Shown: positions 18,567 through 61,994 of the stretch, piece by piece | How the letters are laid out: each line of letters begins with the position of its first letter | Position numbering within the stretch: the first letter of the stretch is position 1 | NCBI GenBank assembly: GCA_947650365.1 | Contig: OX393550.1 | Coordinates: 120,964,374-121,028,373, forward strand | Source: Chamaelirium japonicum | Lineage: Eukaryota; Streptophyta; Magnoliopsida; Liliales; Melanthiaceae | DNA: 64,000 nucleotides | Reading direction: 5' to 3' | Position numbers and translations under genes: made by a program | Notes under the pieces: generated by a model | What the model saw: the letters and a program-made list of their open reading frames with translations, nothing else | Told to the model about the DNA's origin: nothing | Database searches by the model: none

Positions 18567-19830
18567 TGTTGGGGGTAGACAGAAACCACATATCTTGGGT
18601 AGCATTGCAAACGCATCTGAGATAAGAGTTCTCGAGGGAGCCCGTCCAAAAAGCTCGCCCTCCCAGCCCATCAGGAGCTCGCCGCCCCACAGGGAGCTGG
18701 ATGGACACCTTGTATCTGAGTGCAGCTCGACTCTCCCAACCCCTCAGGAGCTCGCCCCGCAGGGAGCTGGATGGACACCTTGTATCTGAGTGCAGCTCGC
18801 AGGAGTTCGCTCCCCCGTGCTCACCAAATCACCTTGACAGGGAGCGAGATCCACATTAGGCTGAAAGGGCCCAGGCCAAGAGCACTCTTAAGAGCTCGCC
18901 TGAGCTCGATGGAGCTCGCCTGAGATCGCCCAGAAGCTCGCTCAGGAGCTCGCCTGAGCTCGATGGAGCTCGCCTGAGATCGCCCGGAAGCTCGCTCAGG
19001 AGCTCGCCCCGCAGCTCGCCAAGCTCACCCAGGAGCTCGCCTAAGCTCGCTCAGGAGCTCGCCCCGGAGTTCGCCAAGCCCGCGCGAGAACTCGCTGGCA
19101 GTGATAGCGGGAGTTAGACCGTCATGCATAACGAAGACACCGGCATCGCGAACGCCCCTAGCTCGCGCAGGAGCTCGCCCCTAGCTCGCTCAGGAGCTCG
19201 CCCAAGCTCGCCAGAATTCCCCAGTTTATCGAGAAGGTTGCTCCCGTGAGGTCCGACTCTTGATAGATGTGGAAGAGAAGGCGGAGCAATGGAGGGCGAG
19301 CTCACCTTAGCTCCCCGTCGGAGGTCGCCCACAATGTATGAGAGGATGCCAGGTGTCAAAACCCCACGGAAGCTACGTGGACAAACGTGGTCCACGGAAG
19401 CTCGCTCGAATCAGTTCGAGACCTCCCAGACTTGAACATTCCAGAAGGGCCACCTGGCCACGACAAGAAAGATTCCCCCCCCACTCAAACCGCCTGGCAG
19501 GCCTGACGACAGAATGTCAGGGCGCGAGTACCAAGGACTGTCAGACCCACGCGAGCCAGAACGTGGGGGGTCTAGAAGGCGCCGGAAGAATCTCCACGTG
19601 TCGGGCCACGGTAGGCCGCCGATTGCTATAAATGCTCACCCCCAGGCTCCATAGTACAGGTTCGAAATCCCTTTTCCTTCCTCTTTGGTCCATTACAGCT
19701 CGCCGTTGTGCCACTGTGACTGACTTGAGCGTCGGAGGGTCTGCGCTCCTGAGGGAGCCAGCCGTTCTCACGTTCTCTTTTCTTTGTCTTGCAGGCAGCC
19801 CGCACGGACCAGCGAAAAATCCCCCGAACA
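18567..19830 (+). repeat. 5' LTR of element 1
   Basis: The LTR is 1264 bp, opening TGTTGGGGG and closing CCCCCGAACA, so the ends form a short imperfect inverted repeat with TG...CA termini. U3 is crowded with GAGCTCGCC-like words and holds two internal duplications: a 70-bp period around 18690-18800 and a 54-bp period at about 18892-18999. A TATA box lies at 19627. It differs from the element 2 5' LTR by one C in a C-run (8 versus 9) and a substitution near 37436. Short open frames inside it look fortuitous. Confidence 0.95.
19627..19633 (+). promoter_or_regulatory. LTR TATA box, element 1
   Basis: TATAAAT in a GC-rich setting inside the LTR. A start of transcription about 30 bp downstream, near 19660, would define the U3/R border. 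The same box sits at the matching place in all LTRs of elements 2 and 3. Confidence 0.75.
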
Positions 19831-19832
19831 TT

Positions 19833-19850
19833 TGGCGCCGTCTGTGGGAT
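19833..19850 (+). other. Primer-binding site, element 1
   Basis: TGGCGCCGTCTGTGGGAT lies two bases after the LTR end. The first nine bases are complementary to a tRNA 3' end of the plant tRNA-Asp type (CGGCGCCA). The rest of the match cannot be verified here, so the tRNA identity is tentative. It primes minus-strand DNA synthesis. Confidence 0.85.
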
Positions 19851-19920
19851 CTTCGACTGGTTCCTGCGAGAACGCCCACGACCACGCGGTTGAGCGCAGT
19901 TCGCTCTCGTAACCTCAAGG

Positions 19921-21516
19921 ATGGCTCCGGCGACAAGGGGACGCAGGCGACCGAGGACTCGTGCCAGATCTGCGCGCAGCGAGCCTCCGGTCGAGACCCC
20001 TCAGCCCCAGGTCCCGCTCAGTGACCAACTCTTGTTGGAGATGTTGGCCACCCAGCGGGCGATGATGGAGGAGCTGACACGATTGCGTCAGGCTCCGGCG
20101 GCCAGCCGACGATCTGGGCCGGCGAAGACGGTGTCTCCGGTGCGACCACCGGCGTCAACATCGCGATCGCCCACGGTCGCTCCGGTGCGGCAGGTTTCCC
20201 AACCGGAACCCCCAGTCGGGAGAGCGGCTGTACGCGGGGTGCCGGAAACCCCGCTCACAAGGTTGCAGAAGCTAGTCACCCAGCGATCTAGCAACCAGGC
20301 GACCTCGCGCGCGACCATTCCCTGCCGCCGTAGCCGGAGCGCCGATTCTGAGGGGTCGGAGGCAAGATCTCTAGAGCGGGATCGCGACCCACGCCATCGG
20401 CGACGAGGGAAAGAGCCCGCGGTGGAAATATCTTCAGGAGCTCGAGAGGCAACGGCCTCCCACAGACCAACTGACGCGCCGAAGGAATCCGTGGGTGGAC
20501 AGCAGGGAGCCCGCTGAGCGGTTGCCCCCGAGGGTCGCCGCGGGGTGGGGCCGACCTCGCCACAAGGGAGCGTACGAGACCGCCTAGGACCTGCGCAGCC
20601 GCCTCTGGGAGTTCTCCCCGGGCGCTGGCGGCGACCTAGTGCGCCAGTAGATTTCCTTGAAGACCTTGCCGCCCACGGAGGTAGCTCGCCTTTCACCAGC
20701 GAGGTCCACCAAGGGGGTTTTCCGCACCACTGGACCCCCCCGAAGTTTGTATTGTTCGACGGGTCGCAGGATCCCGTTGACCATCTCTTGGCTTACAGAA
20801 AGCTTCTGTTTTTCCGGGACCAAGACCACGTCTTGTGCCGAGCATTCCCGAGCAGTTTGACCGGCTCGGCATTGAACTGGTTCCACAAGTTGCCGCCCGG
20901 CACGATCCCCGACTTTCCAACTCTCTCTAGGCTATTCCTGGAGCAGTATCGCTGCAATAGGCAGCCCCCGAAGAGAATCGAGTCTCTGTTTACTTTAACC
21001 ATGGGAGCTCGCGAGACGCTCCGGTGCTTCGCAACGCGATTCCGGAGCGCCTACCTCGCTCTGGAAGACGCGGCGGGCCAAGATCGTACCGTGGTGAGCG
21101 CTTTCAGAAGCGCCCTCCCCGAGGGTTGCAAGCTTCATGACGCTCTAGTGATCAAGGACCCTCGCACGATGGTTGAACTATTTGCCCTGGTCCAGCAACA
21201 CATCAAGCTCGAAGACGCTGTGCTAGACCGAAAGGGAAAGGCAGTCGAGCAGCGACCTCCTCCGGCCCCGCGACCGCTCGTCGTCAAGGCCGTGGAGAGA
21301 AGGGAGGTGCCCCTGGCGGTGGCTTTGCCTGGACCGCCCGCTGTTCCTGCTGAACAGCCCGCTGAAACCCCCACGGCTGTCGCTGGAAGGCCGGCGAACT
21401 GGCGCCTGCCTCCAGGACCCGGGGAGCGGGATTTCACCGTGCTGACCCACTCGCCAGGACAAATCTTCCATCAGATTCGGAATGAACCTTTCTTCCAGTA
21501 CCCGCCACCCCTATAG
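19921..21516 (+). pseudogene. gag: gag of element 1, interrupted by one stop
   Basis: Capsid (Gag) gene of the retrotransposon; it would form the virus-like particle that packages element RNA. It starts at ATG 19921 (residues MAPATRG) after a 90-nt leader and runs 531 codons to TAG 21514-21516. The N-terminal 200 residues are basic and rich in Arg/Pro/Ser. The retrotransposon-gag core follows, with LNWFHKLPPG and FLEQY as landmarks, then QQHIKLED and a Pro-rich tail. The frame is broken by TGA at 20515-20517; element 2 has CGA (Arg) there, so a CpG transition explains it. At 20735-20741 a run of seven C keeps the frame that element 3 also supports. The zinc knuckle lies beyond the TAG. Confidence 0.9.
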
Positions 21517-22425
21517 GTCGGAGAGCCTGGCTCTACCGACAACTCGCGGCGGTGCGCCTTTCATCGAAGCCCTGGGCATCACACTAACAGATGCCGGGCT
21601 CTCAAGAACCACCTCGAGGACTTGGTCACCCAGGGCCACTTGAATCAGTTTATTTCGCCTCCAAGGAGGTTCGAGGTAGTACCGACACGGGCCCCTCGGG
21701 AGGGAGATCGCCCGGGGCCCGCTGAGTCCGCCCTGCCTCCGCCTCCCGCGGAAGGACCGGCGATCTGCCATACCATTAGCGGGCGGCTGTGCGGCCCGAG
21801 ATCCAGTAATGAAGCCCGCCGACGAGTCAGGGAGATGGAGCGGGCACAAAAGGTATTTTCCGTCTCGCTAACTCCTACTTTACTTCAAGCACCAAGGGTG
21901 GAAGCCCGCGATTTTCTCTGGTTTTCGGAAGATGACATGACTGGGGTCGTTACGCCCCACAATGACCCCCTCGTCATACGCCTGATGATGGCTAACATCG
22001 AGGTGAGGCGAGCTCTGGTTGATCCGGGGAGCGCCGTGGACATCCTTTTTCTGTCGGCCTACCTGCGAATGGGGTTGAGACTCGCCGACCTGTCTCCCTC
22101 GACGAGCTCCCTCAGTGGGTTCACCGGAGAGGTCGCCAGAGTGGCAGGGGAGATAACCCTTACGGTGACCGCTGGCCCAGAGGCTCGCCAAGTCCGCTTC
22201 GCGGTAGTGGATGGAAGTTCCGCATTTAACGCCATCCTTGGGCGGCCTTGGCTAAGGCAAATGAATGCGGTAGCTTCACCCAACCATCAGGCCCTCAAAT
22301 TCCCGACCGCGAGCGGGGTCGTAGTAATTCGGGGTGATCAGGTAGCCGCTACCCGATGCGAGCAGGATGTCCTTCACCTCAGGGACATGGAGGTCGCCGA
22401 GGCCAAGAGGCCCGCACCCTCCTAG
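21517..22425 (+). CDS. pro: Zinc knuckle plus aspartic protease of element 1
   Basis: The frame continues straight from gag through the TAG at 21514. The first residues carry a knuckle-like pattern, C-x2-H-x4-GHH-x4-C (CAFHRSPGHHTNRC), then a stretch typical of plant Tat Gag-Pro. No ATG precedes this; the first in-frame ATG is at 21835, so the knuckle can only be made by reading through the stop or from a repaired element. The protease core has LVDPGSAVDILF (catalytic Asp) about 134 codons after 21622, and later AILGRPWL. The catalytic triplet is D-P-G rather than D-T/S-G. The protease would cleave the polyprotein. It ends at TAG 22423-22425. Confidence 0.85.
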   Translation, partial: VGEPGSTDNSRRCAFHRSPGHHTNRCRALKNHLEDLVTQGHLNQFISPPRRFEVVPTRAPREGDRPGPAESALPPPPAEGPAICHTISGRLCGPRSSNEARRRVREMERAQKVFSVSLTPTLLQAPRVEARDFLWFSEDDMTGVVTPHNDPLVIRLMMANIEVRRALVDPGSAVDILFLSAYLRMGLRLADLSPSTSSLSGFTGEVARVAGEITLTVTAGPEARQVRFAVVDGSSAFNAILGRPWLRQMNAVASPNHQALKFPTASGVVVIRGDQVAATRCEQDVLHLRDMEVAEAKRPAPS

Positions 22426-22431
22426 CAATTA
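22423..22431 (+). promoter_or_regulatory. Candidate UAG readthrough signal before pol, element 1
   Basis: TAG CAA TTA sits between protease and pol, with both sides in one frame. Established knowledge: UAG followed by CAR-YYA is the leaky-stop context of tobacco mosaic virus and relatives. The match is exact. That the plant ribosome uses it here is inference. Confidence 0.6.
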
Positions 22432-22515
22432 CCGCCCGCTACGAGCGAGCTATTAAGGAGCCCGCTGGAGGCCTCCTCGCTTAAGTCCCCTACTCCACCC
22501 CCGGGTGGGAGCGGT

Positions 22516-25500
22516 ATGGACCTTAAGTTGGAGGAGGGAGGTCGCCCGACAACCCCCAAGAGAGGAAGTTTTCCAATTGCCGAACCACTTCAAGAGGTCG
22601 ACATTGGCGGCAAGGAAGGGCCAGGAGTTGTTAGCCTCGGGACCTCGCTAACCAAGGGCGAGGTCCTGGCCATAACCAACTTGCTCAGGGAATACCGTGA
22701 CGTATTCGCCTGGAGCTTCGCGGACATGCCAGGGATTGACCCGGAGGTCGCCTGTCATCGTCTGCACACCATGAAGGAGTTCCCGCCGGTCAAGCAGAAA
22801 GCTCGGCACATACCTGCTGCAAAGTCCATTGCAGTGGCGGCAGAGATAGACAAGCTGGAGCGAGCCGGCTTCATCCGCGAGGCGCACTTCCCCGAGTGGA
22901 TCTCCAATATCGTGGCAGTGCCAAAGAAGAGCGGAGCGGTCAGGGTGTGCATCGACTTCTCCGACCTCAACAAGGCATGCCCGAAGGATGGATTTCCTCT
23001 TCCGAGAATAGGCGCACTGGTCGACGCAGCTGTCGGGTTCCAGGCCCTGTCCTTCATGGATGGATATTCTGGGTATAACCAGATACCTCTCCACGCCGAC
23101 GATCAGGAGAAGACCGCCTTCTACTCCGGAGCGGGCTACCAGAAGTTGTACTGCTATCGAGTGATGTCGTTCGGACTTAAGAACGCTGGAGCGACCTACC
23201 AAAGGCTAGTCACTCAGATGTTCAAAGATCAGATCGGCAGAAATGTCGAAGTTTATGTAGACGACCTCCTGGTGAAGAGTCGGGAGAGGGAGGGGCATGT
23301 TGCCGATCTCCGCGAAACCTTCGAGGTACTGAGAAAGTACCAAATGAGGCTAAACCCGGCGAAGTGCGCATTCGGGGTGACGTCGGGGAAATTCCTCGGG
23401 TACCTGGTCACCCACAGGGGGATCGAGGCCGACCCTGGGCAGATCCGAGCACTTGTCGAGATGCCCGCGCCGAGGACCCGGCAGGAAGTCCAGAGGCTGA
23501 GCGGGCGAATCGCCGCGCTCAATCGGTTCATCTCCAAATCCTCAGACAACTGCCGACCTCTTTTCGAGCTGCTACGAAAAGGAGCAAGCATTTGTTGGGA
23601 TGAGAAGTGCGAGCACGCCTTCCAAAAGATCAAGGACTACCTGGCGAGCCCACCGATCTTAGCGGCACCCAAAGAGGGCGCCGAACTCGGCGTGTACCTT
23701 GCGGTCACTGAGAATGCGGTGAGCGGGGTCCTGGTTGTGGAAGAAGCAAAGGTGGAGCGGCCTGTCTACTTTGTAAGCCACACAATGCTTCCCGCCGAGC
23801 TCCGGTATCGACCAATCGAGAAGGTCGCATTGGCCTTGGTCCTTACCGCGAGAAAGCTCCACCCCTACTTCTCGGCGCACCCTGTCAGGGTCATCACAGA
23901 GCACCCTCTAAAGAGCGCGCTCTCCAGGCCCTCAGTAGCCGGCAGGCTCTACCGTTGGTCCGCCGAGCTCGCCGCCTACGGCTTGGAGTATGTCCCTCGA
24001 GTTGCGGTCAAAGGACAGGCGCTCGCCGATTTCTTGGCGGACTTCCCCATAGAAGAACCGGTCCAGTACCGGGAGGATGAGCCAACTGAGGCACACCCTG
24101 GGAAGGCGAGGTTCTTGGACAATCAAGGCGAGCATCCTCCAACTAAGCGTTCAGAGGAGGCAGGCTGGGAATTATTCGTCGATGGATCCTCCAACGCTTT
24201 GGGGGCTGGGATCGGGGTCGCACTGATCGCCCAGTCGGTACTTCTGGAAAAGTCAGTCCGACTGGATTTCGTCGCTACCAATAATGAGGCGGAATATGAG
24301 GCGCTGCTGGCCGGCCTGGAGCTCGCCAAAGAGGTAGGCGCCGAACGCCTGAAGGTCTTTAGCGATTCCCAGCTAATTGTTTGCCAAGTCAATGGGGAGT
24401 ACGCCTCTCGGGACGCACGAATGGCGGGCTACGTGGATCTGGTGAAGCACAAGGCCGCGGAGTTCGAAAAGATTTCCTTCGAGCAAATTCCGCGGGCCGA
24501 TAATAGGCGAGCTGATGCTTTGGCAAACGCCGCCTCTTTGCTGGGAACATCAGAGGCTCGCCAGATTCTCATCGAAGTCCAAAGTCAGTCTCGGCTCCAA
24601 CTGATGGAGCCCGCTGTTAACCAAGTCTCCGCCAACGTACCACTCAGCGGGTGGACCGCCCCCATTTTTCGCTTTCTCCAGAAGGGCGAGCTACCAGAGG
24701 ATAGAGAGGAAGCCCGGCGAGTGGAGAAATGCGCTGGGCGCTATCTCATTCGCTGGGATCGCCTTTTTCGAAGATCCTTTGGCGGGCCAAGTCTCCGTTG
24801 CGTCGAGAGCCCGGAAACCGAAGAAGTTCTAAAGTGCATTCACTCTGGCGAGCTGGGAAACCACGCTGGTGGGCGGTCTCTTGCTACGAAAGTACGAAGG
24901 CAAGGATACTGGTGGCCCACTCTGGAGCAAGACGCTTTGAAGGTCGCCCAGAGGTGCATCCAGTGCCAGAAGCACGCCACCACGAACCATATGCCCACAG
25001 AAGAACTGCATCCTCTGGCGAGCCCCTGGCCTTTCCAGCAATGGGGGTTGGACATTGTGGGACCTTTCCCTGTGTCAGCCCGGCAAAAGAAATTCATCCT
25101 AGTAGCTACGGACTACTTCACCAAATGGGTGGAAGCGGTCCCGCTAGCTAAGATAGGCGAGAAGCAAGTCAAGGACTTCCTTTGGAAGAATATCTTCTGC
25201 CGCTTTGGGCTGCCACGAGTGCTGATCACCGACAATGGTCGCCAGTTCGACAATCGCTTGATCAGAAGCTTTTGTGCTGAATATGGGGTCGACCTAAGGT
25301 TCTCATCCCCGAGGTACCCTCAAAGCAACGGGCAGGCCGAAGCGACGAATCGCGTGATCTTGGACAACCTCAAGAAGAGGCTGGAAGGGAAAAAAGGATT
25401 GTGGGAGCAGGAGCTCGATGGAGTCTTGTGGGCCTATCGCACTACTCCACGTCGCTCAACTAACGAATCCCCTTTCAGTCTCACTTTTGGTTGCGAAGCC

Positions 25501-25887
25501 GTGCTACCCATAGAGGCCGAGCTGCCCACTGAAAGAAGGTTTGCGTCGGCGGAGGTCGACAACGACAAACTGCTAGTCGACTCCCTTGATCAACTTGAAG
25601 AAAGACGAGAGCGCGCCAATCTACACCTCGCCGGATACCGACAAGAGATGAAGCGCGCCTATGATAAAAGAGTCCGCCATCGGGCATTCAAAGCCGGGGA
25701 CATGGTGATAAGGAAGGTGTTCGCAAACACTCAAGAGCCTAATGCAGGAAAGCTCGCGGCGAACTGGGAAGGCCCTTACATAATACGCGAAGCGCGAGGC
25801 CAGGGGGCTTACCAGTTGATGACCGCTGAAGGCGACCTGTTAGAGCGGCCTTGGAATGCTTTACACCTTCGCAAGTTCTATGCCTAA
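22516..25887 (+). CDS. pol: pol polyprotein of element 1 (RT, RNase H x2, integrase)
   Basis: 1123 codons from ATG 22516; the same frame extends back to the UAG at 22423. The order of domains is reverse transcriptase about 85-340 (DFSDLNKACPKDGFPLP, MDGYSGYNQI, catalytic YVDD at 247-250), a first RNase H/connection region about 385-500, a second RNase H about 552-675 (VDGSSN D556, E593, SDSQ D617, ADALA D667), integrase zinc site H776, H783, C814, C817, and catalytic core D846, D906, E942 with 35 residues between the last two. A GPY/F-like motif NWEGPY lies near 1084-1088, and there is no chromodomain. It would copy element RNA into DNA and insert it. The frame is intact. It differs from the element 2 copy at residues 124, 586, 828, 896 and 1065. 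Confidence 0.96.
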   Translation: MDLKLEEGGRPTTPKRGSFPIAEPLQEVDIGGKEGPGVVSLGTSLTKGEVLAITNLLREYRDVFAWSFADMPGIDPEVACHRLHTMKEFPPVKQKARHIPAAKSIAVAAEIDKLERAGFIREAHFPEWISNIVAVPKKSGAVRVCIDFSDLNKACPKDGFPLPRIGALVDAAVGFQALSFMDGYSGYNQIPLHADDQEKTAFYSGAGYQKLYCYRVMSFGLKNAGATYQRLVTQMFKDQIGRNVEVYVDDLLVKSREREGHVADLRETFEVLRKYQMRLNPAKCAFGVTSGKFLGYLVTHRGIEADPGQIRALVEMPAPRTRQEVQRLSGRIAALNRFISKSSDNCRPLFELLRKGASICWDEKCEHAFQKIKDYLASPPILAAPKEGAELGVYLAVTENAVSGVLVVEEAKVERPVYFVSHTMLPAELRYRPIEKVALALVLTARKLHPYFSAHPVRVITEHPLKSALSRPSVAGRLYRWSAELAAYGLEYVPRVAVKGQALADFLADFPIEEPVQYREDEPTEAHPGKARFLDNQGEHPPTKRSEEAGWELFVDGSSNALGAGIGVALIAQSVLLEKSVRLDFVATNNEAEYEALLAGLELAKEVGAERLKVFSDSQLIVCQVNGEYASRDARMAGYVDLVKHKAAEFEKISFEQIPRADNRRADALANAASLLGTSEARQILIEVQSQSRLQLMEPAVNQVSANVPLSGWTAPIFRFLQKGELPEDREEARRVEKCAGRYLIRWDRLFRRSFGGPSLRCVESPETEEVLKCIHSGELGNHAGGRSLATKVRRQGYWWPTLEQDALKVAQRCIQCQKHATTNHMPTEELHPLASPWPFQQWGLDIVGPFPVSARQKKFILVATDYFTKWVEAVPLAKIGEKQVKDFLWKNIFCRFGLPRVLITDNGRQFDNRLIRSFCAEYGVDLRFSSPRYPQSNGQAEATNRVILDNLKKRLEGKKGLWEQELDGVLWAYRTTPRRSTNESPFSLTFGCEAVLPIEAELPTERRFASAEVDNDKLLVDSLDQLEERRERANLHLAGYRQEMKRAYDKRVRHRAFKAGDMVIRKVFANTQEPNAGKLAANWEGPYIIREARGQGAYQLMTAEGDLLERPWNALHLRKFYA

Positions 25888-26000
25888 GGAAATTTTTGTA
25901 AAATTTTCTTTTTGAAAAGGTTATAAATGAATGACGGGATTTTCCACAAAGAATTCCACCCGGAAGCTCGCCGCACCAAGAGCTCGCTTAATCTACAAAA

Positions 26001-26580
26001 CAGTCCGCCGTTGTGCGGACTTAAAGCAAGACCGGGATCCTCAGAGGCAGCCAGTGGGCGACCTTGAGCTTCCCGGAGCAGTCCGCCGTTGTGCGGACTT
26101 AAAGCAAGACCGGAATCCTCAGAGGCAGCCAGTGGGCGACCTTGAGCTTCCCGGGGCAGTCCGCCGTTGTGCGAACTTAAAGCAAGACCGGAATCCTCAG
26201 AGGCAGCCAGTGGGCGACCTTGAGCTTCCCGGAGCAGTCCGCCGTTGTGCGGACTTAAAGCAAGACCGGAATCCTCAGAGGCAGGCAGTGGGCGACCTTG
26301 AGCTTCCCGGGGCAGTCCGCCGTTGTGCGGACTTAAAGCAAGACCGGGATCCTCAGAGGCAGCCAGTGGGCGACCTTGAGCTTCCCGGGGCAGTCCGCCG
26401 TTGTGCGGACTTAAAGCAAGACCGGGATCCTCAGAGGCAGCCAGTGGGCGACCTTGAGCTTCCCGGGGCAGTCCGCCGTTGTGCGGACTTAAAGTAAGAC
26501 CAGGATCCTCAGAGGCAGCCGGTGGGCGACCTTGAGCTTCCCGGGGAAGTCCGCTGCCTAGTGGACTCTAAACCTAACCA
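26001..26580 (+). repeat. 78-bp tandem array after pol, element 1
   Basis: Seven units of 78 bp begin at 26001, 26079, 26157, 26235, 26313, 26391 and 26469, followed by a diverged eighth part. Nearly every unit contains GTCCGCCGTTGTGCGGAC, a 6-bp stem with a 6-base loop. Because 78 is a multiple of 3, the array leaves an open frame (25931-26497) of 26-residue repeats that starts at ATG. I treat this as a by-product, though a repeat protein is not excluded. Tandem repeats between pol and the 3' LTR are known in Tat-clade elements. Confidence 0.93.
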
Positions 26581-27027
26581 GGATCCTTCGCGTTCACCTG
26601 CCATGAACGGAAGCATCCTGGCGTTGGCAAACCCCTCAAAGGGCGAGCCCGCCAAACAGGATCATCGAGAGAAATTAACCGGGCAGGGGGCAGCTAGCAC
26701 TTATTAGTTTCCTTTAAAAATAAAAATCGTTTAAGTCTCTGAGTGTAGGGAAGTTTTTGAAGTCTTTTGGTTCGTTTTAACGTTTTCCGGGCTCAGAGAC
26801 TATCGAGTTTTTACGAGCATGCCGAGTTTTTCGTTTGCATATACTTAAAAATAAAAGGGTTGAATCGAATTAGCTGCCTCGCCCGGGGTCTCGCTCTCGA
26901 GGTCGCTGCGAACTCCCAAAGCGGACTCATAAAAGGCACATAGAAAGAAAGAAACGCATATGCGGGCCCAGAAAGATAAATTTCATTGATTGGCAAAAAT
27001 TACAAAAGTAGTTACAAGGCAGCAAGC
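26581..27027. other. Spacer between 78-bp array and antisense gene, element 1
   Basis: No gene is seen. The stretch from 26708 is AT-rich. It holds a perfect 9-bp inverted repeat, GTCTCTGAG at 26735-26743 and CTCAGAGAC at 26792-26800, with 48 bases between. As both pol and the antisense gene end toward this spacer, it should hold the 3' ends of both transcripts; I could not identify firm polyadenylation signals. Confidence 0.6.
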
Positions 27028-29577
27028 TCAAGGCTTGCTTGTCTCCGCCCCACTGTCGTCCCCTCGGCGCCGCTTCTTCGACCTTTCGGTCTTGTATTTC
27101 TCCACAGCGGCCAGGGCGCCTTTCTTGAGGAGATCGTCCAGTTGGGCTTGGAGGCGGCCTTGCTGAGCCCGAAGGCCATTGGTGTGTGTCTCCTTCAAGG
27201 CCGCAATCTCCGTCTTCAGAGCAGCGACCTCGCCTTGAAGTTGAGCCGCCTCCCGCTGTGCGACCTCCCGGGCGGACACAGCTTCGTCTCGCTCCGCCTT
27301 GGCGTTGAGGAGGGCAGTAGCGGACAGGCCTTTGGCTACCTCGGCCATGGCGAGGCCTGACGCCAGGGTTTTGACCCTGCGGTGCAGTGCCTCTGACTCC
27401 ACCCTCAGCTCCTCGGAGCCCTTGGCTCGCTGAAGCTCGTGGATGTGCTCGTCTACCTTGCGCTCGGACCCCCGAAGGGAATCATCGAACAAGGCGGCCA
27501 GTGCCTTCCCGGCCCCAGCGACCTCCGCGGCCAGCGCCTGGCTCTGCTTCTCCGCCTGCATAAGGAAGGTGAAAGAGTTAGCAAAAATTGAGACTAAGAT
27601 TTATAAGGAGGCAGGTGCGGTGAGTACCTCGGCAAGGCGTTCGCTTATGGAAGCGAAGGGAGCCCGCGCGAAAACGTTGCGGCCCAGCAGCTGCCGCACG
27701 TAGTGGGGCGCCCTCCCCTCCTCCGCAGAGGAGCCCGCGCTGGGACCCCCGGGAGCTCCGGAAGGAGGGGGCACGCCAGGAGGAGTGGGGGCTATCACCT
27801 CCCCCGGGCGAGCTCTGGCTCCTGGCGGGCTCGGAGGGTCCGCGGTGGCCCCCTTGGCCTCTGGCTCCGAGCTGAAGGACTCGGAGTCGGAGCCAATGTC
27901 AACAAAGCTAGGGGACCTGTAGACCAGGTCCCCTAAGCCCTGCTGGGAGCCCGCTCCCTCCTGGCCTTCTGCAGGAGGCGAGGCCGGAGGGGCGGGAGCT
28001 GGAGCGGCCGCCGGTGTAGAGGCCGCGAGAGTTGGAGCCGAGGCCGGCAAGGAGGTCGCAGCGACGGCGTCGGACTCGCCCTGCTGGACCCCTGCCCCGT
28101 CGGCGGGAGATGGAGGCTCCTGCCCGCTCGATCCCGGCCCTGGTGCGGGAGCTGATGGAGTCGCGGGCTTCATCCCTTGGGCGGGAGCAACAGGCTCCGC
28201 CCGAGGAGCTTGAGGGGCGGGCTCTTCTTCCTCGGAGCCTGTTGCCTCCTCCGCAGAGTCCGTCCAGCTGGGCTCCGAGTCCAAGCCCGCCTCCTCCAGC
28301 GCTTTCCGCCGTTGCTCCGCCTGGACGTCAGAAGGCGCGGGCCCCGCGCGTTTGGCCTTCTTCTTCCCGCGGGCCTCCATCTCCGGCGTCAGCACTGCTA
28401 TACGAAGCGGGACGGTCAGATCGCCCGGGAAGTAGCCCATTAGAATTTGAGCCATCCCGGACTCGACTTCCGCCATGGTAAGTGGGAGGTCGATGTTCGG
28501 GTCGTCGGGCTCAACCATTTGGATCTTGCGGCGGACAATTGGAGTTGGGGCGGGAGGCTGACCTGGGCCGGCGTCCGGGCGAGGAGGTTGCGGAGGAGCG
28601 GAAGCTTCGCCCTGGTGAAGCATCTCCATGGTATCGGGGTCGTTGAGGCGGATGGGCGAAGCCCGCCTCCGGACCGTCTTCTTACGGGGGTTGCCTCCCG
28701 AGCTCCCGGCCCCCTTGCTGGCCCCTTTGGAGGGAGGGGCGTTCTGCATCGGCGGAATAGCGCCGACCTCCTCCTCTTTCTTCTTCCGGACGGTCTTCTG
28801 CTTCAGCAGAATAGCGCCGGTCTTCCCGTCCTTCAGCTGGAAGACGAAGTCGGGGGCGGTGATCTTCTCCGGAGTCCGCCCACCGAGGTAGTGGAGGATC
28901 GCATCGTCCAGAGATCGCTCCCGGTCGGGAGCGATGCACTTCTTCTTCCCCGCCTTGTAGAAGGAGATCTCCCGGAAGACCGCCGTCGGGGGAACCCCGG
29001 GGTGAGCCGGGACTCCGCTGTGCCGCCCGCGCCAGTCGCCGACCGCCACGAAAGGATAGTCCTTCCAGTGGCGGTCCTTGCTCTCGATGGTGGAGAAGGG
29101 GAGCACCTCGCCAGGCCGCCCGGCGAGGTAGAAGTAGCCGCAGCCCGCGGTGCTGAAGACCGGTGAGGGCTTGAGGAGCCACTTTTTGAGCAAGTAGCTC
29201 AGTGGGATCCTCGCCTTCAGAGCGGTCTCCAGCTGGGACAGCCCGTAGAGTATCCCCCAGGAGTTTCCTGAGAGTTGGGCGGGGCAAAGCCCCGTCAACT
29301 CCAGGAGCTCCCCGGCGAGATGACTCAGGGGGAACCGCAGCCCGGACCACAGCAGCCCGACAGAAGCTACTGTGCCCTGGGGCGGCCTCCCCGAGAGTGG
29401 CATCTCGGTGACGAGGATCTCCCGAGGGAGATTGATCGCCGCCCGGATACTGTCCCCGACAGGCACCCCAACGGGGTTTTGCAGCCAGACCACCGCTCTT
29501 TCGGTGGCGGGCTCAGCGGCCTGGGCGGCAGCAGCAGCGGCAGCAACAGCAGCAGCAACGTCAGCAGCGGAAGCCAT
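27028..29577 (-). CDS. Antisense two-exon gene of element 1 (gypsy-type putative transposase family)
   Basis: It lies on the strand opposite to pol. Exon 1 runs 29577-27628 and exon 2 runs 27555-27028, joined in phase 0 across a 72-bp intron. The product is about 825 aa. ATG 29577 (residues MASAADV) is chosen because the longer open frame to 29619 begins with TTG. After an Ala-rich start, about residues 70-140 (LRFPLSHLAGELLELTG, KARIPLSYLL) resemble the plant family called putative gypsy-type transposon (Transposase_28). A long Pro/Ala/Ser/Glu-rich acidic segment follows. Exon 2 is a heptad-rich coiled coil ending in a basic KKRRRG cluster that could be a nuclear signal. Antisense genes in this position are known in Tat elements; their role is unknown. 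A TATA-like box lies about 100 bp upstream. Confidence 0.8.
27556..27627 (-). other. 72-bp GT-AG intron in the antisense gene, element 1
   Basis: On the minus strand the donor is GAG|GTACTC and the acceptor is a pyrimidine-rich run ending TTATGCAG|GCGGAG. It is AT-richer than the exons and contains the in-frame stop that ends the unspliced reading frame 8 codons after the donor. Removal joins two open frames in phase 0. Confidence 0.75.
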
Positions 29578-29672
29578 GAGAGCAGAAGGGCTAAAGCGAG
29601 CTGAAAGCACTAGAAGCAAAGGGAGAAGGGAGAGCTGTTTTCACGCAGCAGTAAAAATTGCCCCCCGTCCCC

Positions 29673-29680
29673 TATTTAAA
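29673..29680 (-). promoter_or_regulatory. TATA-like box for the antisense gene, element 1
   Basis: The minus strand reads TTTAAATA about 95-100 bp upstream of the chosen ATG at 29577, in otherwise GC-rich DNA. The spacing suits a plant core promoter with a leader of about 65 nt. Confidence 0.55.
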
Positions 29681-30162
29681 GGCGAGCGAGAGACAGGTGA
29701 ATCGACCCGCAGTTAATGCCCAAGCGCGCTCGGCGAGGCGACGTGACGGCGATCAAAGCGACAGCTCGCTTCTCTCAAATCGTCGAGCGCCACGTGGACC
29801 ACGCGTGGAAAAAGCTGCGCCGGCGCCAGCACTGTCCTTTATTGACAGAGAAAGGGACAAATGAGGAGGAGACACGCGTCTCGCGCCGATCGGGGTCTCA
29901 TGATGAGATTCGCTGTATCAGCGTTGAGCCTCGCGCCGTAGTTAAGGTGAAGCGACCGTTGGAGATTCGGTGCGATACCCAAGTCACAAGATCGCCCGCG
30001 GCAGGCGCCCCAAGCTCGCCCGAAGCAGACCCTGACCGCGTGTGACAAGCTCGCACCGGAAGGAGATCGCTCGTGGCTGACGCTCGTGGCCCGCCCAGCG
30101 TTTGTGAAATACTGGGAGTCAAAACTCTCGACGCAGATCGCTCGCGGTAGGTGCCCGCAGCT
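29681..30162. other. 3' non-coding remnant of element 1
   Basis: GC-rich sequence upstream of the antisense gene that holds the first unit of the 148-bp repeat (from about 29993) and then breaks at 30162 into satellite. In element 2 the same stretch continues for about 930 bp to the 3' LTR. No gene is seen; short antisense frames here read across repeat units. Confidence 0.7.
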
Positions 30163-39745: not shown

Positions 39746-40654
39746 GTCGGAGAGCCTGGCTCTATCGACAACTCGCGGCGGTGCGCCTTTCATCGAAGCC
39801 CTGGGCATCACACTAACAGATGCCGGGCTCTCAAGAACCACCTCGAGGACTTGGTCACCCAGGGCCACTTGAATCAGTTTATTTCGCCTCCAAGGAGGTT
39901 CGAGGTAGTACCGACACGGGCCCCTCGGGAGGGAGATCGCCCGGGGCCCGCTGAGTCCGCCCTGCCTCCGCCTCCCGCGGAAGGACCGGCGATCTGCCAT
40001 ACCATTAGCGGGCGGCTGTGCGGCCCGAGATCCAGTAATGAAGCCCGCCGACGAGTCAGGGAGATGGAGCGGGCACAAAAGGTATTTTCCGTCTCGCTAA
40101 CTCCTACTTTACTTCAAGCACCAAGGGTGGAAGCCCGCGATTTTCTCTGGTTTTCGGAAGATGACATGACTGGGGTCGTTACGCCCCACAATGACCCCCT
40201 CGTCATACGCCTGATGATGGCTAACATCGAGGTGAGGCGAGCTCTGGTTGATCCGGGGAGCGCCGTGGACATCCTTTTTCTGTCGGCCTACCTGCGAATG
40301 GGGTTGAGACTCGCCGACCTGTCTCCCTCGACGAGCTCCCTCAGTGGGTTCACCGGAGAGGTCGCCAGAGTGGCAGGGGAGATAACCCTTACGGTGACCG
40401 CTGGCCCAGAGGCTCGCCAAGTCCGCTTCGCGGTAGTGGATGGAAGTTCCGCATTTAACGCCATCCTTGGGCGGCCTTGGCTAAGGCAAATGAATGCGGT
40501 AGCTTCACCCAACCATCAGGCCCTCAAATTCCCGACCGCGAGCGGGGTCGTAGTAATTCGGGGTGATCAGGTAGCCGCTACCCGATGCGAGCAGGATGTC
40601 CTTCACCTCAGGGACATGGAGGTCGCCGAGGCCAAGAGGCCCGCACCCTCCTAG
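39746..40654 (+). CDS. pro: Zinc knuckle plus aspartic protease of element 2
   Basis: This frame is open from the TAG at 39743 to the TAG at 40652. It has the knuckle-like cluster first and the protease motif LVDPGSAVDILF and AILGRPWL later, with the same sequence as element 1. It has no upstream ATG, so expression would require reading through the first UAG as part of Gag-Pro-Pol. The D-P-G catalytic triplet is unusual among retropepsins, though variation at this position is known in plant Tat elements. Its role would be polyprotein cleavage. Confidence 0.85.
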   Translation, partial: VGEPGSIDNSRRCAFHRSPGHHTNRCRALKNHLEDLVTQGHLNQFISPPRRFEVVPTRAPREGDRPGPAESALPPPPAEGPAICHTISGRLCGPRSSNEARRRVREMERAQKVFSVSLTPTLLQAPRVEARDFLWFSEDDMTGVVTPHNDPLVIRLMMANIEVRRALVDPGSAVDILFLSAYLRMGLRLADLSPSTSSLSGFTGEVARVAGEITLTVTAGPEARQVRFAVVDGSSAFNAILGRPWLRQMNAVASPNHQALKFPTASGVVVIRGDQVAATRCEQDVLHLRDMEVAEAKRPAPS

Positions 40655-40660
40655 CAATTA
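40652..40660 (+). promoter_or_regulatory. Candidate UAG readthrough signal before pol, element 2
   Basis: TAG CAA TTA, identical to element 1. Because the two elements are duplicates of one insertion, this is not independent conservation. Confidence 0.6.
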
Positions 40661-40744
40661 CCGCCCGCTACGAGCGAGCTATTAAGGAGCCCGCTGGAGG
40701 CCTCCTCGCTTAAGTCCCCTACTCCACCCCCGGGTGGGAGCGGT

Positions 40745-43700
40745 ATGGACCTTAAGTTGGAGGAGGGAGGTCGCCCGACAACCCCCAAGAGAGGAAGTTT
40801 TCCAATTGCCGAACCACTTCAAGAGGTCGACATTGGCGGCAAGGAAGGGCCAGGAGTTGTTAGCCTCGGGACCTCGCTAACCAAGGGCGAGGTCCTGGCC
40901 ATAACCAACTTGCTCAGGGAATACCGTGACGTATTCGCCTGGAGCTTCGCGGACATGCCAGGGATTGACCCGGAGGTCGCCTGTCATCGTCTGCACACCA
41001 TGAAGGAGTTCCCGCCGGTCAAGCAGAAAGCTCGGCACATACCTGCTGCAAAGTCCATTGCAGTGGCGGCAGAGATAGACAAGCTGGAGCGAGCCGGCTT
41101 CATCCGCGAGGCGTACTTCCCCGAGTGGATCTCTAATATCGTGGCAGTGCCAAAGAAGAGCGGAGCGGTCAGGGTGTGCATCGACTTCTCCGACCTCAAC
41201 AAGGCATGCCCGAAGGATGGATTTCCTCTTCCGAGAATAGGCGCACTGGTCGACGCAGCTGTCGGGTTCCAGGCCCTGTCCTTCATGGATGGATATTCTG
41301 GGTATAACCAGATACCTCTCCACGCCGACGATCAGGAGAAGACCGCCTTCTACTCCGGAGCGGGCTACCAGAAGTTGTACTGCTATCGAGTGATGTCGTT
41401 CGGACTTAAGAACGCTGGAGCGACCTACCAAAGGCTAGTCACTCAGATGTTCAAAGATCAGATCGGCAGAAATGTCGAAGTTTATGTAGACGACCTCCTG
41501 GTGAAGAGTCGGGAGAGGGAGGGGCATGTTGCCGATCTCCGCGAAACCTTCGAGGTACTGAGAAAGTACCAAATGAGGCTAAACCCGGCGAAGTGCGCAT
41601 TCGGGGTGACGTCGGGGAAATTCCTCGGGTACCTGGTCACCCACAGGGGGATCGAGGCCGACCCTGGGCAGATCCGAGCACTTGTCGAGATGCCCGCGCC
41701 GAGGACCCGGCAGGAAGTCCAGAGGCTGAGCGGGCGAATCGCCGCGCTCAATCGGTTCATCTCCAAATCCTCAGACAACTGCCGACCTCTTTTCGAGCTG
41801 CTACGAAAAGGAGCAAGCATTTGTTGGGATGAGAAGTGCGAGCACGCCTTCCAAAAGATCAAGGACTACCTGGCGAGCCCACCGATCTTAGCGGCACCCA
41901 AAGAGGGCGCCGAACTCGGCGTGTACCTTGCGGTCACTGAGAATGCGGTGAGCGGGGTCCTGGTTGTGGAAGAAGCAAAGGTGGAGCGGCCTGTCTACTT
42001 TGTAAGCCACACAATGCTTCCCGCCGAGCTCCGGTATCGACCAATCGAGAAGGTCGCATTGGCCTTGGTCCTTACCGCGAGAAAGCTCCACCCCTACTTC
42101 TCGGCGCACCCTGTCAGGGTCATCACAGAGCACCCTCTAAAGAGCGCGCTCTCCAGGCCCTCAGTAGCCGGCAGGCTCTACCGTTGGTCCGCCGAGCTCG
42201 CCGCCTACGGCTTGGAGTATGTCCCTCGAGTTGCGGTCAAAGGACAGGCGCTCGCCGATTTCTTGGCGGACTTCCCCATAGAAGAACCGGTCCAGTACCG
42301 GGAGGATGAGCCAACTGAGGCACACCCTGGGAAGGCGAGGTTCTTGGACAATCAAGGCGAGCATCCTCCAACTAAGCGTTCAGAGGAGGCAGGCTGGGAA
42401 TTATTCGTCGATGGATCCTCCAACGCTTTGGGGGCTGGGATCGGGGTCGCACTGATCGCCCAGTCGGTACTTCTGGAAAAGTCAGTCCGACTGGATTTCG
42501 CCGCTACCAACAATGAGGCGGAATATGAGGCGCTGCTGGCCGGCCTGGAGCTCGCCAAAGAGGTAGGCGCCGAACGCCTGAAGGTCTTTAGCGATTCCCA
42601 GCTAATTGTTTGCCAAGTCAATGGGGAGTACGCCTCTCGGGACGCACGAATGGCGGGCTACGTGGATCTGGTGAAGCACAAGGCCGCGGAGTTCGAAAAG
42701 ATTTCCTTCGAGCAAATTCCGCGGGCCGATAATAGGCGAGCTGATGCTTTGGCAAACGCCGCCTCTTTGCTGGGAACATCAGAGGCTCGCCAGATTCTCA
42801 TCGAAGTCCAAAGTCAGTCTCGGCTCCAACTGATGGAGCCCGCTGTTAACCAAGTCTCCGCCAACGTACCACTCAGCGGGTGGACCGCCCCCATTTTTCG
42901 CTTTCTCCAGAAGGGCGAGCTACCAGAGGATAGAGAGGAAGCCCGGCGAGTGGAGAAATGCGCTGGGCGCTATCTCATTCGCTGGGATCGCCTTTTTCGA
43001 AGATCCTTTGGCGGGCCAAGTCTCCGTTGCGTCGAGAGCCCGGAAACCGAAGAAGTTCTAAAGTGCATTCACTCTGGCGAGCTGGGAAACCACGCTGGTG
43101 GGCGGTCTCTTGCTACGAAAGTACGAAGGCAAGGATACTGGTGGCCCACTCTGGAGCAAGACGCTTTGAAGGTCGCCCAGAGGTGCATCCAGTGCCAGAA
43201 GCACGCCACCACGAACCATATGCCCGCAGAAGAACTGCATCCTCTGGCGAGCCCCTGGCCTTTCCAGCAATGGGGGTTGGACATTGTGGGACCTTTCCCT
43301 GTGTCAGCCCGGCAAAAGAAATTCATCCTAGTAGCTACGGACTACTTCACCAAATGGGTGGAAGCGGTCCCGCTAGCTAAGATAGGCGAGAAGCAAGTCA
43401 AGGACTTCCTTTGGAAGAATATCTTCTGCTGCTTTGGGCTGCCACGAGTGCTGATCACCGACAATGGTCGCCAGTTCGACAATCGCTTGATCAGAAGCTT
43501 TTGTGCTGAATATGGGGTCGACCTAAGGTTCTCATCCCCGAGGTACCCTCAAAGCAACGGGCAAGCCGAAGCGACGAATCGCGTGATCTTGGACAACCTC
43601 AAGAAGAGGCTGGAAGGGAAAAAAGGATTGTGGGAGCAGGAGCTCGATGGAGTCTTGTGGGCCTATCGCACTACTCCACGTCGCTCAACTAACGAATCCC

Positions 43701-44116
43701 CTTTCAGTCTCACTTTTGGTTGCGAAGCCGTGCTACCCATAGAGGCCGAGCTGCCCACTGAAAGAAGGTTTGCGTCGGCGGAGGTCGACAACGACAAACT
43801 GCTAGTCGACTCCCTTGATCAACTTGAAGAAAGACGAGAGCGCGCCAATCTACACCTCGCCGGATACCGACAAGAGATGAAGCGCGCCTATGATAAAAGA
43901 GTCCGCCATCGGGCATTCAAAGCCGGGGACATGGTGATGAGGAAGGTGTTCGCAAACACTCAAGAGCCTAATGCAGGAAAGCTCGCGGCGAACTGGGAAG
44001 GCCCTTACATAATACGCGAAGCGCGAGGCCAGGGGGCTTACCAGTTGATGACCGCTGAAGGCGACCTGTTAGAGCGGCCTTGGAATGCTTTACACCTTCG
44101 CAAGTTCTATGCCTAA
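40745..44116 (+). CDS. pol: pol polyprotein of element 2 (RT, RNase H x2, integrase)
   Basis: 1123 codons, open throughout, in frame with protease across the UAG. It has the same domains and catalytic residues as element 1: RT YVDD 247-250, second RNase H D556/E593/D617/D667, integrase H776-H783-C814-C817 and D846-D906-E942, GPY/F near 1084-1088. It differs from element 1 by H124Y, V586A, T828A, R896C and I1065M. R896C falls in the FCRFGLP segment just before the second integrase Asp, a usually conserved place, so it may weaken the integrase. Most of these changes are C/T or G/A, several at CpG. Confidence 0.96.
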   Translation: MDLKLEEGGRPTTPKRGSFPIAEPLQEVDIGGKEGPGVVSLGTSLTKGEVLAITNLLREYRDVFAWSFADMPGIDPEVACHRLHTMKEFPPVKQKARHIPAAKSIAVAAEIDKLERAGFIREAYFPEWISNIVAVPKKSGAVRVCIDFSDLNKACPKDGFPLPRIGALVDAAVGFQALSFMDGYSGYNQIPLHADDQEKTAFYSGAGYQKLYCYRVMSFGLKNAGATYQRLVTQMFKDQIGRNVEVYVDDLLVKSREREGHVADLRETFEVLRKYQMRLNPAKCAFGVTSGKFLGYLVTHRGIEADPGQIRALVEMPAPRTRQEVQRLSGRIAALNRFISKSSDNCRPLFELLRKGASICWDEKCEHAFQKIKDYLASPPILAAPKEGAELGVYLAVTENAVSGVLVVEEAKVERPVYFVSHTMLPAELRYRPIEKVALALVLTARKLHPYFSAHPVRVITEHPLKSALSRPSVAGRLYRWSAELAAYGLEYVPRVAVKGQALADFLADFPIEEPVQYREDEPTEAHPGKARFLDNQGEHPPTKRSEEAGWELFVDGSSNALGAGIGVALIAQSVLLEKSVRLDFAATNNEAEYEALLAGLELAKEVGAERLKVFSDSQLIVCQVNGEYASRDARMAGYVDLVKHKAAEFEKISFEQIPRADNRRADALANAASLLGTSEARQILIEVQSQSRLQLMEPAVNQVSANVPLSGWTAPIFRFLQKGELPEDREEARRVEKCAGRYLIRWDRLFRRSFGGPSLRCVESPETEEVLKCIHSGELGNHAGGRSLATKVRRQGYWWPTLEQDALKVAQRCIQCQKHATTNHMPAEELHPLASPWPFQQWGLDIVGPFPVSARQKKFILVATDYFTKWVEAVPLAKIGEKQVKDFLWKNIFCCFGLPRVLITDNGRQFDNRLIRSFCAEYGVDLRFSSPRYPQSNGQAEATNRVILDNLKKRLEGKKGLWEQELDGVLWAYRTTPRRSTNESPFSLTFGCEAVLPIEAELPTERRFASAEVDNDKLLVDSLDQLEERRERANLHLAGYRQEMKRAYDKRVRHRAFKAGDMVMRKVFANTQEPNAGKLAANWEGPYIIREARGQGAYQLMTAEGDLLERPWNALHLRKFYA

Positions 44117-60728: not shown

Positions 60729-61994
60729 CTACACACAAGGTAGGAGGCTGCTGCTGCTCGGCCATCTCCTTCGACGATCCAGCACCACATCTTCGAGCTT
60801 AATGTGTTGTTGGACCAAGGCAAAGAGCTCGATCATGGTGCGGGGATCAGAAATGACTATCGCATCATGAAGCTCACCTCCTTCGGGGAGCGCGCTCCGA
60901 AAGGCACTCACGGCCGTCCGGTCTCGCCCTGCTGAGTCCTCAAGAGCGTGATAGGCATTCCGGAATCGCATTGAGAAGCACCGGAGGGTTTCCCTTGCGC
61001 CCATGGTAAGACCGAACAGTGATTCGATCTGCTTCGGAGGTCGCCGATTGCACCGGTACTGTTCCAGGAACAGCCCGGATAGAGCAGTGAAGCTCGGGAC
61101 CGAGCCCGGAGGTAACTTATGAAACCAGTCGAGGGCCGAACCCACCAAGCTGCTCGGGAAGGCGCGGCACAGAACGTGGTCCTGATTCCGAAATAATAAC
61201 AACTTTCGGTAGGCCAAGAGGTGGTCCACGGGGTCTTGCGACCCGTTGAACAAAACAAACTTTGGTGGGGTCCAGTGCTGAGGGAAACCTCCCTAATGAA
61301 CCTCGTTGGTGAAGGGCGAGCTCCCTCCCCGGACGGCGAGCTCTTCTAAGAGGTCGACGGGCGTGCTAAGTAGCTGCCAGCGCTCGGGATGATTTCCCAA
61401 AGACAGCTGCGCAGGTACCAAGCAATCATGCACGCTTCCTCGAAACCGGTTCGCAGCCTTGCTACGGTTGTGCTCGGGGGCGACGTCCTCTGACTCGCCC
61501 GAGTCCGCACCGGGGCTTCGTCGGCGAGGGGGGGCCATCGGCAGGGTTGACTTATTGCTGGAGCACTGGGTGCCGAGTCGCTGCGGCCGCTCGAGCGCGG
61601 TCCCTCTCGTCCGGCGTGCCACTGCGTCCTCCACAGGGGGCTCCTGCTGGGATGCCCGCCATGTGGGCGCCATAGTGGGTTGATGCGATGCTGGGACAAG
61701 GGGAGGTCGCACAGGGGAAACAACCCCCGCCGATACTACTGGACGCTGGGACGGGATCACTGACTCTTCCCTCCGCGGGGTGAGCCCGGGGGAGAGATCA
61801 GTGATCCGGCTCATCGTCGGAACCTGGCGCAGTCGCACTATCTCGCCCACCATGGCCCGCTGAGTGGCCAACACCTTCAAAAGGAGATGGCCGTTGAGCG
61901 GGACAGGGGGTTGTGATGCTTCAGCGAGCAGCTCGCTTTGTGCAGACTCGGCATGGGCTTTCACCCGTTTCTGCCTCCGCGTGACCGGAGCCAT
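60729..61994 (-). pseudogene. gag: gag of element 3, with one in-frame stop
   Basis: It starts at ATG 61994 (residues MAPVTRR, matching MAPATRG of element 1) and spans 422 codons in one frame, broken by TAG at 61293-61295 where element 1 has CAA (Gln). The gag core follows (LDWFHKLPPG, FLEQY, QQHIKLED), then the frame ends at 60729 after an Arg/Ser-rich tail with no zinc knuckle. Compared with element 1, about 60 residues of the basic N-terminal region are missing. If the stop is recent, this could once have made particles; today it would give only the N-terminal part. Confidence 0.88.

Follow-up and report, generated by a model that had tools for sequence, protein, structure and literature searches.

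In tobacco mosaic virus (TMV), the CAR-YYA hexamer beside the UAG stop codon is essential for readthrough and 25 flanking bases suffice; tyrosine is inserted at the UAG, and readthrough is lost when the first C is changed to G (as described in PMC2754532). Readthrough amounts to ~10% in vivo for TMV and to 32% for the TMV context in a leaf reporter (PMC2754532), and UAGCAAUUA gives 2-5% in applications (PMC12371167); in the accounts of these two papers, the published range for this context is 2-5% to 32%. The type I signal has been described as sufficient alone (PMC2194720). In 2009, verified cases of readthrough in plants were viral only, according to PMC2754532, and Arabidopsis mRNAs are cited as further cases in a more recent review (PMC12371167).

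The means by which plant LTR elements produce Gag in excess of Pol have been described in few cases, among them splicing in EVADE and BARE (PMC12786077) and in Ogre (PMC6317226). The rice gypsy element RIRE2 has been proposed as a readthrough candidate (cited in PMC2754532). CAR-YYA was looked for in a fungal element and not found, as stated in a passage of PMC3441728.

The retrotransposon studied here has its stop between protease and pol at position 22423. This stop and the CAR-YYA after it are kept across three Tat-type families and, judging from that conservation, very probably form a leaky stop of type I (TMV-like) that is programmed. Translation would mostly terminate at 22423, with release of Gag-Pro, while a smaller share of ribosomes would insert an amino acid at the UAG and continue into Gag-Pro-Pol. 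The ratio of Gag-Pro to Gag-Pro-Pol would be set in this way and used in particle assembly. By analogy with the systems above, we infer that ribosomes pass, at what rate and with which amino acid, and that assembly makes use of the ratio.

The element and its Gag-Pro/Pol junction

The window, i.e. the whole 64,000-nucleotide stretch of Chamaelirium japonicum DNA that was analysed, harbours a Ty3/gypsy element amid stretches of a 23-bp satellite. The gag, protease and pol regions all lie in frame 1, as judged from the window ORFs. Satellite arrays of the 23-bp unit, on both strands, flank the element within positions 1-64000. The element is present twice, in an 18.2-kb tandem duplication of satellite and element with 99.74% identity between the copies. 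The features are as follows.

20515..20517, + strand: TGA within gag, in copy 1 only (CGA in copy 2), decay
20518..21513, + strand: open-frame stretch for gag (capsid), with a match to Pfam Retrotrans_gag PF03732 (E 1.4e-9)
21514..21516, + strand: TAG in late gag, in both window copies, local decay
21517..22422, + strand: nucleocapsid and protease (weak Asp_protease_2 PF13650 match, E 0.0034, below the curated cut-off)
22423..22425, + strand: TAG, predicted leaky stop between protease and pol
22426..22431, + strand: CAATTA, type I CAR-YYA readthrough context, directly after the TAG
22432..22680 (end approximate), + strand: rapidly evolving linker, reached only by ribosomes that pass the stop
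22426..25884, + strand: pol, with RT, RNase H, second RNase H and integrase (Pfam RVT_1, RT_RNaseH, RVT_3, rve)
25885..25887, + strand: pol stop TAA, ordinary, then GGAAAT
27604..29640, - strand: antisense ORF of 679 aa, 3' of pol (weak Transposase_28 match, E 0.11, below cut-off)
40652..40660, + strand: identical stop and hexamer in the duplicated copy
40655..44113, + strand: pol of the duplicated copy

In 21517..22422, we spotted by eye what we take to be a zinc-knuckle-like stretch and, at DPGS, an aspartic-protease-like site. The pol ORF codes for 1153 residues in the same frame as the stop at 22423 and is thus an in-frame coding extension. In its product, Pfam places RVT_3 (586-703) between RT_RNaseH (423-518) and Integrase_H2C2 (795-851), and a second RNase H between RNase H and integrase is the Ogre/Retand domain order as given in PMC6317226. 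By its second RNase H, the element fits the Tat lineage of Ty3/gypsy (Ogre/Retand branch). Retand elements carry an antisense ORF with a TRP28 domain between pol and the 3' LTR; here, the 679-residue antisense ORF is present with a sub-threshold Transposase_28 match, and a search around the window copy (window 18567-30162) found no pair of LTRs. The window copy ends in satellite and may be truncated at its 3' end. A second gag-like ORF (60732-61292, - strand, Retrotrans_gag, E 1.2e-8) lies outside both studied copies.

The sequence-only reading had described a TAG at 22423-22425 with CAATTA immediately after it in the gag/protease/pol frame, an open frame beyond and a duplicate site at 40652. 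All three are borne out by the window sequence: no further stop occurs until the pol TAA at 25885, and the second site is part of the 99.74%-identical duplication and therefore adds no independent support. Its chance estimate for CAR-YYA, 1 in 512, holds for even letters; by the element's own codon use (1198 codons), the figure is about 1 in 854. It had also placed gag, protease and pol in one frame, which is correct for the shared frame but not for a clean reading upstream, given the stops at 20515 and 21514. The gag of copy 2 also changes frame. A role of the TAG at 21514 as a second programmed stop was discarded, since 37 of the 40 nearest copies have CAG there, and the TAG thus represents local decay.

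Conservation across copies and families

Copies were searched for in one genome (1.52 Gb). All 40 nearest copies, two of which are the window's own, keep TAG CAATTA CCG. In 24 of them, the TAG at the site is the sole stop over 20704-24297 (3.6 kb), with no indels. Other stops, found at 11 sites among these copies, are never followed by CAR-YYA, and neither is the pol stop (TAAGGAAAT). As these 40 copies are recent relatives, their agreement alone is weak evidence.

For a site-blind test, we used the flanks of the family A site, with nine free bases replacing stop and hexamer. This pattern matched 1351 places (687 + 664), against 0 for the reversed control. Among the first 100 places in contig order, one of which is the window's, 96 read TAG CAATTA, one TAG CAGTTA, one TAG TAATTA and two TAT CAGTTA; hence 98 of the 100 have TAG, and 97 have TAG plus CAR-YYA. 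With TAG in all 40 near copies and in 98 of these 100 places, a copy-specific nonsense codon was rejected as an explanation of the site.

The two TAT CAGTTA copies of family A (C2:91648052-91648086 and C2:91670156-91670190) have a tyrosine codon instead of the stop and would make the fusion constitutively. With a distance of 22 kb between them on the same contig and CAGTTA in both, they may represent a single event. Tyrosine is also the residue inserted at the TMV UAG, as reported in PMC2754532.

A second site-blind test relied on the RT motif downstream of the site, which was found at 2743 + 2778 places and at none in the control. Of 100 places listed, we read 60, made up of 30 from the start of the list, 10 from its end and 20 chosen for an unusual motif. 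TAG with the full CAR-YYA is present in 51 copies, TAG with one base off in five; two have no stop and two are unreadable. The full site is in frame with the RT motif in 46 of the 60 copies, and is also present, with a later frameshift, in L075, L090, L094 and L093/L110, and in L101/L111 (site outside the stretch first retrieved). By family, the 51 full sites comprise 42 of A, five of B and four of C. All 56 judged copies of families A to C have TAG at the site, and a sense codon replaces it in none of them. In L081 and L103, the site is deleted or rearranged.

The copies with one base off are L064 (CGGTTA), L087 (CACTTA), L088 and L089 (TAGTTA) and L104 (CAAATA). All five contain other stops, compared with another stop or a frame change in 19 of the 51 full-site copies, over stretches of unequal length. 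L088 and L089 have two stops in a row (TAG TAG TTA), the second in place of the hexamer's opening codon, a pattern that C-to-T decay of a CAG in a CHG site would give.

The full hexamers take five forms, CAATTA, CAACTA, CAATCA, CAGTTA and CAGCTA. As a check that makes no assumption of CAR-YYA, we tallied codon 2 after the stop in the 56 judged copies: it is TTA in 48, TCA in four, CTA in three and ATA in one, and so ends in A in all 56. Such codons are scarce in the element, where YTA accounts for 30 of 172 Leu codons and TCA for 9 of 97 Ser codons; the encoded dipeptide alone is therefore no explanation for the constant final A.

Across 44 family A copies, identity is 1.00 for the TAG and on average 0.96 for the hexamer, and falls to 0.77 in the next 52 nt; the 16 of 60 copies set aside are those of families B, C and D, two unreadable ones, L093 and L101. 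In the same 44 copies, 9 of 336 nine-base windows match the conservation of the site, so that the family A peak is sharp, not unique. The linker dN/dS ranges from 0.27 to 1.47 (56 codons, 21 family A pairs), which implies modest constraint on the first residues past the stop; close copies account for the values around or above 1. No strong RNA structure was found 3' of the stop in dot-bracket folds without pseudoknots (fold z -0.93, 0.46, 0.19, -1.79). As these z-scores are unremarkable, a simple RNA fold was rejected as the marker of the site.

The families are diverged. At the protein level, A and B are 36% identical over the protease stretch and 60% over pol, and the silent distance between families is undefined (saturated) or at least 1.5. 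From the stop to the RT motif, there are 279-303 nt in A (316 in the frameshifted L110), 189 in B and 192 in C. In the family B copy L071, 1011 codons are open except for the single TAG, and family C reads CAA TAG CAATTA. The sequence-only reading had proposed searching related elements of the same genome for the bases after the protease stop; in that search, families A, B and C all keep TAG, and 51 of the 56 judged copies have the full CAR-YYA. On the alignments at hand, a site shared by three diverged families with different linkers is a family feature, not the accident of one copy.

A family D was also found (L100, L106; two of the 60 copies), with no stop at this position. In the family D sequences L112 and L113, the protease continues into a long repetitive linker and the RT lies in another frame; L113 has one linker stop where L112 has Trp. 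This arrangement may represent frameshift decay or a different recoding.

In database relatives, protease and RT match one protein in 100 of the best 120 of 6005 (gene models may bridge a stop), and thus the lineage as a whole does not share the stop. The named organisms among these best 120 are eudicots and two magnoliids. The single-protein relatives agree with the cluster counts given in PMC11963269, where a single gag-pol ORF characterises 37 of the 63 Retand clusters, the share being 83% for eudicots and 29% for the paper's "Liliaceae". Protein searches with Gag-Pro yielded six matches for L014 (27-37% identity) and eight for L071 (27-33% identity, five of the eight sequences read), all at the protein level, at which the DNA context is not visible. 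Among viral contigs scanned for relatives, three stretches fit a pattern and none was confirmed.

Alternative routes to Pol

An Ogre-like intron might remove the stop from part of the transcripts, Gag-Pro-Pol being then made from spliced RNA. Ogre relatives do splice, with a mean gap of 274 bp between gag-pro and pol (according to PMC6317226), but in families A to C one stop is followed by a linker open up to the RT motif in 42 of the 46 sampled copies with an in-frame site. In a crude consensus scan, none of seven representatives had a GTRAG donor, and A, B and C had no AGGT site in common. Splicing would also leave CAR-YYA unexplained, and we consider it very unlikely.

Pol might also have a start codon or an mRNA to itself, through re-initiation or an internal promoter. 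There is a precedent in the Candida element Tca2, whose gag/pol junction has promoter activity and no detectable readthrough in yeast, as described in PMC2194720; Tca2 is, however, reported without CAR-YYA (PMC3441728), which separate initiation leaves unexplained. The sequence-only reading had pointed to a pol ATG 90 bases after the stop (22516..22518, + strand). This does not hold in the 40 near copies, where the codon is ATG in three, GTG in 36 and deleted in one; it is therefore no family feature and was rejected as the pol start. More generally, the linkers of the 46 sampled copies contain no conserved pol start codon, and in 29 of them no in-frame ATG follows the stop until one within the RT motif. 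Separate initiation thus appears highly improbable.

Least probable of all, to the point of being barely credible, is an ordinary nonsense mutation that arose in a dead or helped element and was carried along by hitch-hiking copies: the window copies do have further nonsense codons, and a stop in a master copy would pass to all its copies, but the same stop and hexamer occur with open pol frames in three families at saturated or at least 1.5 silent distance, the 11 other stop sites of the 40 near copies lack CAR-YYA, and a dead element does not fit families B and C.

Comparison with known systems

The rice gypsy element RIRE2 was reportedly described by Ohtsubo in 1999. It is placed among the Retand elements by PMC6317226. 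Ogre, of the Tat lineage, resembles the present element by its two ORFs, gag-pro then pol, and differs by its partly spliced intron, as described in PMC6317226. In murine leukaemia virus, an in-frame UAG between gag and pol is likewise read through (PMC5009743); its 3' signal is a pseudoknot, whereas here we find CAR-YYA and, in folds modelled without pseudoknots, nothing remarkable. Candida Tca2 and Verticillium VdLTRE5 also have an in-frame stop between gag and pol. In contrast with the present element, they are Ty1/copia elements with UGA, and CAR-YYA is not reported for them in the passages of PMC3441728 that deal with them.

Our literature search, judged by titles, the beginnings of abstracts and passages, found no plant retrotransposon with CAR-YYA after a stop. 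Readthrough of a gag/pol stop is already known; what is new here, by this search, is a TMV-type signal conserved across families. A type I signal conserved in diverged, high-copy elements would represent another Gag/Pol route, and its many natural variants would form a large collection of leaky stops. Annotation calls for caution as well, as such elements look like two ORFs or broken genes, yet the stop is a feature.

On balance, it seems fairly probable that the TMV-type UAG-CAR-YYA is a standing switch between Gag-Pro and Gag-Pro-Pol in an old branch of plant Tat/Retand elements, retained in three or more families while their silent sites became saturated and, extrapolating from the copies read, present in thousands of copies of one genome. 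If so, plants would have a major use of type I readthrough outside viruses. The likeness to the tobamovirus signal, UAG plus CAR-YYA, is close: the nine bases of the window are UAGCAAUUA of PMC12371167, as given there. The difference lies in the setting, a viral replicase for TMV and a retrotransposon Gag-Pro/Pol junction here, where readthrough is predicted from sequence. In family C, the likeness extends upstream, with a 5' CAA beside the stop as described for TMV (PMC2754532), so that this family combines the TMV core with the 5' CAA.
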